From the NCBI GenBank assembly GCA_021647715.1, contig JAKIUE010000010.1:1-37690 (forward strand): a stretch of DNA of 37,690 bases. The letters run 5' to 3'. A model generated the notes under the pieces. The model searched no databases, was not told where the DNA came from, and was given only the letters and a program-made list of their open reading frames with translations. The position numbers were made by a program, and so were the translations under genes. Below are positions 2,533-27,949 of the stretch, in pieces (position 1 is the stretch's first letter; each line of letters starts with the position of its first letter). This DNA is from Sulfurovum sp. (GTDB lineage Bacteria; Campylobacterota; Campylobacteria; Campylobacterales; Sulfurovaceae).

Positions 2533-3290
2533 TAGTCTACCTTGTATCCATACTGTTTTAAAATAGTTTTTGCTTGTTTACTTAAGATAAAATCATAAAA
2601 CTTTTTTACATCAGTATTCTCGTTTGCATGCTTTAGTATCACTATACCTTGATCTATGGGGTTATAAAATGATTCATCTACCTCTGTCCAATGTATATAC
2701 TCTTTATAGTGTGACATTTGAGGAGACAAAAGTGATGATTTAGCTACCAAACCAATATCTGCTGCTTTGCTTGTAAAAAAAAGTGTTTGGGATATCGATT
2801 CGCCATAAACCAATTTATGTTTTACTTTTTCATAAAGATTTTCATGCACTAATGCTTCTTTTGCAGCTTTTCCATAAGGTGCACTTTGGGGGTTTGCAAT
2901 AGCTATTTTTTTGATAGATACATCATCTAGTATAGGAAGCCCCACGTGGTAATCTCTCTTTTGTGTAGACAACAGTACTAAAGAGCCTTTGGCATACACA
3001 AGCGGTGAAGTAATCGCAATTTTTTCTTTATAGAGCCTATTAGGATACATCATATTTGCAGACATAAAGATGTCATAAGGTGCACCATGTTGTATCTGAG
3101 CAGTCAATTTTCCAGAACTTCCTAAAATAATCTGTACTTTTATCTCAGGGTTTTGTTTGGTAAATGCTTCTTCCAAATCTTTGATGGCATAACTTACATT
3201 TGCCGCCACTGCTACTTTTATCTCTTTTGCACACAGACTACTAAAACCAAATATAACTGCTAGTAAAATGTATCTATATGACCATGTCAT
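2532..3290 (-). CDS. modA: Molybdate-binding periplasmic protein ModA
   Basis: This is the periplasmic binding protein that captures molybdate for ModBC. A signal peptide covers about residues 1-21 (hydrophobic core ILLAVIFGFSSLCA), followed by KEIKVAVAAN. The ModA-type SSGKLTAQIQHGAPYDIFMS segment, which holds oxyanion ligands, is present. I chose the ATG at 3290 because AGGAAG lies just upstream and the signal peptide then has normal length; an ATG at 3308 has no ribosome site. It is first in modABC and is transcribed away from the RNA genes beginning near 3382. Tungstate as ligand cannot be excluded. Confidence 0.88.
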   Translation of the reverse strand: MTWSYRYILLAVIFGFSSLCAKEIKVAVAANVSYAIKDLEEAFTKQNPEIKVQIILGSSGKLTAQIQHGAPYDIFMSANMMYPNRLYKEKIAITSPLVYAKGSLVLLSTQKRDYHVGLPILDDVSIKKIAIANPQSAPYGKAAKEALVHENLYEKVKHKLVYGESISQTLFFTSKAADIGLVAKSSLLSPQMSHYKEYIHWTEVDESFYNPIDQGIVILKHANENTDVKKFYDFILSKQAKTILKQYGYKVD

Positions 3291-3346: not shown

Positions 3347-3375
3347 TTGACAAACTAATCCAAAAGTGTTATCAT
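3347..3375 (+). promoter_or_regulatory. Sigma70-type promoter for the 6S candidate and probably tmRNA
   Basis: TTGACA at 3347-3352 and TATCAT at 3370-3375 are separated by 17 bases, which predicts transcription from about 3382. It lies back to back with modA. No comparable promoter is seen between 3382 and the tmRNA 5' end at 3570. Confidence 0.7.
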
Positions 3376-3381
3376 CCGACG

Positions 3382-3566
3382 AAATTAAACCTACCTGTTT
3401 TGGTTTATGTGGTAGATGTGATGAGAGTAGTGCTTAGATTTGTGGTTAGAGTGCATATAAAAAATTTGAGACTAGCTGCTGGCTAGTCGATGATTTTTTG
3501 TATGTGCTCTAGACTCAAAGATGAATACTAATTTTATCATAACTATCACATACTCCAAAACAAAAA
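3382..3566 (+). ncRNA. Rod-shaped structured RNA, candidate 6S RNA (ssrS)
   Basis: Bases 3396-3476 pair in one constant register with 3482-3562 (each pair sums to 6958). This gives an imperfect hairpin of about 81 pairs closed by a five-base TGCTG loop. The basal stem (3396-3424 with 3534-3562) has only three mismatches, and the upper stem (3446-3465 with 3493-3512) pairs fully. Most remaining mismatches cluster in a weakened central zone at 3425-3445/3513-3533. Several pairs are G-U only when read on the plus strand, which argues for selection on a plus-strand RNA. A single rod with a loosened middle and a length near 180 nt is the architecture of 6S RNA, the regulator of sigma70 RNA polymerase. 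The 6S name is inference from shape; another structured RNA is possible. Confidence 0.6.
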
Positions 3567-3569
3567 AAT

Positions 3570-3969
3570 GGGGGTGACTTGGTTTCGACTGGAGTAGTCG
3601 GGGCTATGTGCATGTCGGACTGAGCAATTCCGTTACGCGGCTCACACGCATTTAAACGCAAACAACACAGATTACCGTCCAGCTTACGCAGTAGCGTAAG
3701 TCATTAACCCCGCTCACGCGGAGGACTGCCCTGCCTGGGAGTGTCATCTTAACAGGAGTCCATTTATTTGGAGTGCTTTTGCATTTTGGGTATCACATCT
3801 GATGACTATGCCCCGTGGAAGCTATGCCACAGGGTGAGAATCTTAGCTCGTCTAGCAAAGTTTTGAGTGTAGTACAAAACTAGATTAAAATTAACAACAC
3901 CGTCTAAGCATGTAGAGTCATAGTTCTAGCTATTTTAGGACAGGGGTTCAATTCCCCTCACCTCCACCA
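3570..3969 (+). ncRNA. ssrA: tmRNA (SsrA)
   Basis: The gene has a classic tmRNA 5' end (GGGGGTGACTTGGTTTCGAC) and a 3' end with a T-arm (GGGGTTCAATTCCCC) and CCA. The 5' GGGGGTG pairs with CACCTCC at the 3' end to form the acceptor stem. The tag frame at 3658-3699 encodes ANNTDYRPAYAVA followed by TAA, close to Campylobacterota tags. tmRNA rescues stalled ribosomes and marks the unfinished protein for proteolysis. Its 3' end is the integration site of the element, and the gene is regenerated intact at the left junction. The 5' end is probably made by RNase P from a longer transcript. Confidence 0.97.
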
Positions 3970-4164: not shown

Positions 4165-5427
4165 ATGGCAAGACTAACACAACCGCTGAGTGCCACAGAA
4201 ATAAAAAATGCTAAAGCTAAAGATAAGAAATACAAGTTATCTGACGGGAGAGGCTTATCTTTACACATCCTTCCAAATGGATCAAAATTATGGAGACTCA
4301 AGTATAGATTCAACAACAAAGAAAAAGAATATGCTATTGGTACCTACCCTACCATTTCTCTTGCTAAAGCTAGAACTAAAAGAGAAGAATTAAAAGAACT
4401 TATTGCAGACAATATAGATCCTAATCAGAGGAAGAAAGAACTTAGGCAAGCTACACAAGATATAGAACTAAAAAAAGAAAATACATTTTATAATATTTCT
4501 CAAAAATGGCTCAAAAGTTACAAGAGTCAGGTCTCTGAGAACTATCATACACGCTTGGGCAGAGCTTTAGAAAATTACTTGTACCCCAGTTTAAATATAA
4601 GCAGTCAAAAAATATCTATCAAAAATAAACCAATCGATGAAATTACACGAAAAGAGATTATTTTCATTTTAGAGCATTTAAAAGATAGAGATTTACTCGA
4701 AACTGCAAAACGTACGGCTATGTTACTTAATAAAATTTACAAATATGCTGTTACTCATGAATATACCCCTCATAATATAATTGCTGATATTGAATTACCT
4801 ATTGTCTTGGGTAAGCGAGAAAAAAAACATTATCCTACCTTGACAAAAGAAAAAGACATTAAGGCTCTACTCTTATCTATAGATGAATATTCGGGGGACT
4901 ACTATACTAAATTAGCACTCAAGGTACTTCCTTATGTGTTTGTCAGAAGTTTTAACATCCGTCATATGGAATGGAAAGAAATCAACTTTAAAACAGAAGA
5001 GTGGATTATCCCTAAAGAAAAAATGAAGACAAAAAAAGAATTTATTCTACCTCTCTCCAGTCAAGCTATAACTATTCTTCAAGAAGCCAAAGAAAACAGC
5101 TTGAGTCATATTTATGTATTTCCAAGTATCATAAACAATGACAAACCCCTTAGTGATAATACCCTCATATCAGCTTTAAGACGTATGGGGTATAGTAAAG
5201 ATGAATTAGTACCTCATAGTTTTAGATCAATTTTTAGTACTATTGCTTATGAAAAAGCAAATGATACTAACGGTCATAACTATACTGGAGAAGTTATAGA
5301 AGCTTGTTTGGCGCATAAAGAACAAAATAAAATAAAAGCTGCATACAACCACTCTACCTACAAAGAAGCTATGCAAGGTCTTATGCAATGGTATGGTGAT
5401 CATTTAGAAAAGATGAAGAATTTATGA
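4165..5427 (+). CDS. int: P4-type tyrosine recombinase/integrase
   Basis: This 420-residue integrase catalyses site-specific insertion and excision of the element. Residues 1-90 form the DUF4102 arm-binding domain (LSDGRGLSLHILPNGSKLWR), about 105-200 the core-binding domain and about 220-410 the catalytic domain. Catalytic residues read as R261, H351 and R354 (HSFR), H384 (LAH) and the nucleophile Y394 in AAYNHSTY. The usual RPGE around the first arginine is RSFN here. The ATG at 4165 has AAAGG upstream. Its position next to the tmRNA 3' end and its orientation away from it are standard for ssrA-integrated islands. The gene looks intact. Confidence 0.95.
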   Translation: MARLTQPLSATEIKNAKAKDKKYKLSDGRGLSLHILPNGSKLWRLKYRFNNKEKEYAIGTYPTISLAKARTKREELKELIADNIDPNQRKKELRQATQDIELKKENTFYNISQKWLKSYKSQVSENYHTRLGRALENYLYPSLNISSQKISIKNKPIDEITRKEIIFILEHLKDRDLLETAKRTAMLLNKIYKYAVTHEYTPHNIIADIELPIVLGKREKKHYPTLTKEKDIKALLLSIDEYSGDYYTKLALKVLPYVFVRSFNIRHMEWKEINFKTEEWIIPKEKMKTKKEFILPLSSQAITILQEAKENSLSHIYVFPSIINNDKPLSDNTLISALRRMGYSKDELVPHSFRSIFSTIAYEKANDTNGHNYTGEVIEACLAHKEQNKIKAAYNHSTYKEAMQGLMQWYGDHLEKMKNL

Positions 5428-27881: not shown

Positions 27882-27924
27882 CTATTGCATTTAGTACCTT
27901 AACGAGTATGACAATAGCGTTATC

Positions 27925-27949
27925 TTCAATTCCCCTCACCTCCACCAAA
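27925..27949 (+). repeat. attR core: right 25-bp att repeat
   Basis: The 25 bases are identical to 3947-3971 in ssrA, including the CCTCCACCA end. No other tmRNA sequence is present here, so it marks the right border of the element and not a second ssrA copy. Confidence 0.95.

Follow-up and report, generated by a model that had tools for sequence, protein, structure and literature searches.

A rod-shaped RNA element in the ssrA leader of a Sulfurovum genome is related to a dispersed family of mobile palindromes

The ssrA transcription unit

The window analysed here (the whole stretch of 37,690 nucleotides from Sulfurovum sp.) carries near its beginning a tmRNA gene, ssrA, preceded by a promoter and by a long hairpin that we call the rod (Table 1). 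The tmRNA gene is recognized by its RF00023 match, its tRNA-like ends and the reading frame of its tag. The near-consensus promoter described in a first-pass annotation of this DNA is indeed there, with 11 of 12 consensus matches, a spacer of 17 nucleotides and a TG ahead of the −10 box. The same annotation had placed ssrA only seven bases past the rod, in agreement with the linker listed in the table, and had seen no second good promoter for ssrA; our own reading of positions 3495-3570, which include the linker between the rod and ssrA, likewise yielded no promoter-like site.

Table 1. Features of the rod-tmRNA unit, in window coordinates.
Feature	Position	Strand	Basis
Sigma70-type ssrA promoter, TTGACA-17-TATCAT	3347..3375	+	Pattern; same promoter in most rod-free relatives
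Presumed region of the start site, with a short unpaired leader (inferred)	3376..3395	+	Distance from −10; unpaired in precursor fold
Structured rod, copy of the dispersed family at the ssrA locus	3396..3562	+	Fold, blastn, alignment, covariation
Core with homology to every other copy (model R1)	3420..3538	+	Model R1; blastn to non-ssrA loci, independent of the model
Best conserved segment, AAAAAATTTGAG - hairpin - TCGATGATTTTTT, with 3x3 internal loop	3458..3500	+	
7-nt linker from rod to mature tmRNA 5′ end	3563..3569	+	
tmRNA (ssrA), tag ANNTDYRPAYAVA	3570..3969	+	Rfam RF00023, 134.6 bits; ARAGORN

In most Sulfurovum genomes, the promoter TTGACA...AGTGTTATNATCC lies 39-48 nt upstream of ssrA and no rod is present, so that transcription normally starts close to the first base of ssrA. 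Because these relatives carry the same promoter at that distance, the rod and the tmRNA of our genome are very probably parts of one precursor, and in the predicted fold of the whole precursor the two form separate domains. A rod stands directly 5′ of ssrA in four genomes, namely G000 (the genome of the window), G010, G013, and G081; the distance from the −35 box to ssrA is 218-223 nt in rod-bearing G000 and G013, while the stretch read upstream of ssrA in G081 contains no TTGACA and the promoter there is left unassigned.

Other sequences have entered the same place. Upstream of ssrA in L025, L026, L030, L042, and L053, the leader that follows the promoter contains insertions with short hairpins, for instance AAAATGCTATGCATTTT; these insertions, found in a few other genomes, are unrelated to the rod. 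Since rods and unrelated inserts both occur there, the ssrA leader is a spot that tolerates insertions.

On the other side of the gene, window positions 3945-27947 make up a genomic island of about 24 kb integrated at the ssrA 3′ end, with a tyrosine integrase (4165-5427) and, at 27923-27947, an att-like sequence that repeats the end of ssrA in 23 of 25 bases. Between 5501 and 17054, this island holds a DNA phosphorothioation defence set made of DndC, a DndD/PbeC-like protein, DndF, DndG, and DndH, with an unassigned 134-aa ORF in the place of DndE.

The fold of the rod and the 6S RNA question

The first-pass annotation had described a rod of about 81 pairs with a weakened middle. The very stable hairpin is confirmed: positions 3375-3569 reach a folding energy of −81.9 kcal/mol against a mean of −35.0 for shuffled sequences (z −11.9). 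The count of pairs has to be lowered, as the minimum free energy (MFE) structure of the 167-base rod has 69 of them, and the middle is weakened only in the sense that it consists of a series of small internal loops, the largest about 3x3 in both the MFE and the consensus structure, and not of an open bubble. The remark that wobble pairs fit plus-strand RNA only is borne out, with 11 G-U pairs against 1 A-C in the register of the rod and a minus strand that reaches only −46.5 kcal/mol.

These properties had prompted the idea of the rod as a 6S RNA that is made together with tmRNA as one precursor; its rod shape, its length of about 170-185 nt, the strong promoter and the strand-specific structure speak for it. 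An Rfam covariance scan of the window, however, returned no 6S family either at gathering thresholds or at a permissive E ≤ 10, RF00013 has no match in this genome, and the large single-stranded central bubble was looked for in the rod and not found. The genome has a better candidate. Indeed, RF01069 (the purD motif, 76 bits) lies directly upstream of purD on contig C118, and in C. jejuni and H. pylori it is the RNA transcribed immediately ahead of purD that is 6S RNA (PMC3847290). Judged by its position, RF01069 would be that same RNA, and by position and family together it is the epsilon-type 6S RNA of this genome. The rod resembles RF01069 in length, but the two share neither sequence nor structure nor locus. 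One has to add that the homologues of the rod are multicopy and flanked by target duplications, as described below. The rod is thus not 6S RNA, and a precursor joining the two RNAs is left with next to no probability; since the relatives of the rod are dispersed repeats and 6S lies on another contig, 6S and tmRNA have no common precursor.

Two further Rfam matches were set aside, a MIR7996 match of 37.5 bits (cut-off 119), which is a generic match to a long hairpin, and tmRNA_permuted matches in the window, which correspond to partial tmRNA.

The tmRNA and 6S genes of this genome nevertheless each carry a relative of the rod, without being joined. The one beside 6S is shorter (L102:2367-2483, + strand) and abuts the 3′ end of the 6S gene (2483-2613, − strand), the two lying on opposite strands. 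About 15 other genomes have a rod relative at the corresponding position beside 6S.

A dispersed, MITE-like family

A blastn search with the rod against 78 Sulfurovum genomes found homologues outside ssrA in G070, G100, G003, G023, G033, and G010; it is on this search that we base the homology of the copy in the window, because the window rod is one of the training sequences of model R1, whose E-values are rough. The core covariance model has matches in 59 of the 78 Sulfurovum genomes, where a single genome yields as many as 25; across the order, 21 of 150 genomes contain matches. Some matches duplicate one another, the same copy being hit on both strands. We fetched the 73 strongest or best-per-genome matches and read them by eye; nearly all of them contain TTTGA(A)G...TCGATGA-like and GCTTG...CAATGA-like motifs. 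The family that emerges is made of imperfect palindromes of about 160-170 bp, found mainly in Sulfurovum, together with shortened copies of about 50-120 bp. None of the 60 sampled copies lies inside an ORF, all being intergenic. In named contigs, the exact core occurs in MAGs labelled Sulfurovum, Nitratifractor, and other Campylobacterota, and the core pattern had no match in viral contigs.

Some copies deserve separate mention. In three genomes (L091, L093, and L094, at about 2990-3160), rods devoid of mobile termini occupy one orthologous site (MFS-type transporter gene/phosphatase-kinase gene); the rod hairpin of L163:1501-1655 contains a further inserted G+C-rich short repeat; and L095:2868-2942 (− strand), next to one rod copy, gives a match resembling a c-di-GMP-I-GGC riboswitch (58.9 bits for a cut-off of 59).

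The dispersed copies end in terminal inverted repeats, CCC(A/G)AAT...ATT(T/C)GGG. Counts of this terminus pattern in three genomes are 55, 62, and 81, whereas the reversed control gives 0-2. Direct repeats of 5 bp flank the copies, exactly so in 25 of 47, with an identity of 0.75 against 0.52 for shuffled pairings (z 10.4); duplication lengths of 3, 4, and 6-9 in the same register were not significant. In our own genome, the contig C10 copy is bracketed by two TTTAA repeats, and its flanks, once joined with a 5-bp overlap, match an uninterrupted stretch in G008, G027, G003, G100, and others, in other words an empty site. Termini, target duplications, and an empty site in relatives are the reasons why we call the dispersed copies MITE-like, and they are mobile.

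As for the mobilizer, CC ends and 5-bp duplications suggested IS1380, but the IS1380-type domain PF13701 is absent from most copy-rich genomes, and no mobilizing transposase or other autonomous partner with the same ends was identified. Integron attC sites, suggested by the palindromes, do not fit the 5-bp duplications and the varied flanks.

The copies at ssrA are different. The one in the window has the ends TGTTTTG/CAAAACA and is homologous to other copies in its core only, and the CCC...GGG termini and a clear target duplication, both looked for, are absent from the ssrA copies; insertion at the ssrA site itself is, for this reason, something that we only infer.

Short mobile palindromes are not new in bacteria. 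The Correia (NEMIS) elements of Neisseria are likewise short and mobile, consist of inverted repeats, and undergo co-transcription and RNase III cleavage (PMC10969869, PMC2649163). The rods have different termini and no sequence relation to them that we could find, and they are set apart by 5-bp duplications, a more complete rod, one RNA strand on which selection can be measured, and a copy that is fixed in a tmRNA unit. The ERIC/RU-2-type repeats of enterobacteria (127-168 bp) are, like the rods, intergenic, multicopy and MITE-like (PMC2759123, PMC10969869). They differ from the rods in sequence, host phylum, and duplication length. The target duplication of ERIC is TA. Finally, GTAG/CGTC REPs have been reported also from Sulfurovum sp. 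NBC37-1 (PMC3733652), and are thus dispersed palindromes of the same genus; they measure 20-40 bp, whereas the rods measure about 165 bp and have 5-bp target duplications and conserved internal loops. That mobile palindromes can be processed as RNA is, therefore, already known. The family is absent from Rfam and no description of it was found in the literature searched; neither source yielded the family itself, nor its duplications of 5 bp, the strand-specific conservation of its RNA, or its presence in a tmRNA unit.

Selection on the RNA strand and the ssrA copy

The rod strand folds better than the opposite strand in all 73 copies. In a register set by those base pairs that the folds of the two strands share, dispersed copies have 385 G-U for 19 A-C oppositions, and the 6S-adjacent copies 55 for 1. 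Palindromic DNA by itself would not produce this asymmetry, which argues for selection on RNA and not on DNA. Pairs changed on both sides number 48 of 67 consensus pairs in an alignment of 13 copies. As dispersed copies may have inherited the asymmetry from a master copy, the comparison of ssrA orthologues is the stronger evidence for selection at ssrA. The compensatory changes that the first-pass annotation proposed to look for are found there: in the four orthologues, which share one locus, 95.7% of the cells pair and 17 pairs are changed on both sides. Neither value is reached in any of 500 shuffles, and structures slid by 1-3 columns pair at 33-47%. The RNA structure of one strand is thus kept by selection, the ssrA locus included.

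It could be argued that the rod is neutral MITE debris, its pairing reflecting palindromic DNA (a cruciform or a need for inverted repeats) rather than an RNA function. Mobile copies with inverted repeats and duplications, the intergenic position of all sampled copies, and the lack of an ssrA copy in several relatives would all suit such debris; a palindrome in DNA does not explain the one-strand excess of G-U, however, nor neutral decay the compensatory changes in four fixed ssrA copies, and we regard this reading as very unlikely.

If RNA is what is selected, the rods might be stand-alone genes for a trans-acting regulatory RNA, some of them amplified by a transposase, with the copies at ssrA and beside 6S being functional. 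Selection on the RNA strand would be expected of such genes, as would the conservation of the core in fixed copies without mobile termini at ssrA, 6S-purD, and narK-like loci, and the constant position of the 6S-adjacent copy. Yet detectable copies are absent from many genomes, the dispersed ones resemble MITEs, neither a promoter nor a terminator of their own was identified, and close sisters have no copy at ssrA, which makes this proposal unlikely. Quite unlikely, in our opinion, is a related one in which a structured RNA gene would have turned mobile, as a bacterial analogue of SINEs, with fixed copies recruited beside 6S and tmRNA to control their maturation or level.

We consider it probable that the rod at ssrA is an old, fixed copy of the MITE-like palindrome family that lies within the ssrA leader, is processed off the tmRNA, and is dispensable. 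Close sisters of this genome have no rod at ssrA, which is why we call it dispensable and which suggests that it is not essential. On a tmRNA tree, rod-bearing genomes do not form one clade, G000, G013, and G081 standing apart, and losses, gains or recombination have therefore occurred. This scatter weighs against the explanation, as do the absence of mobile termini from the ssrA copies and the failure to identify a mobilizing transposase. According to this preferred explanation, a mobile palindromic element would have been captured between the ssrA promoter and ssrA, and transcription from the ordinary ssrA promoter would give a leader of about 180 nt folding as a long duplex, independently of the tmRNA fold. 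RNase P would then release the mature tmRNA 5′ end, as it does for tmRNA in general (PMC3985003). RNase III probably cuts the rod duplex, by analogy with Correia elements, and the rod may act in cis on tmRNA processing or stability.

Mobile palindromes are usually seen as DNA repeats, and the rods offer a measurable case of selection on an RNA strand, with one copy that is very probably now part of the precursor of an essential stable RNA, the tmRNA. A tempting but false 6S call is corrected here, and one has to keep in mind that other rods near ssrA or 6S in Campylobacterota could be misannotated. Campylobacterota thereby gain a structured RNA family that Rfam lacks.
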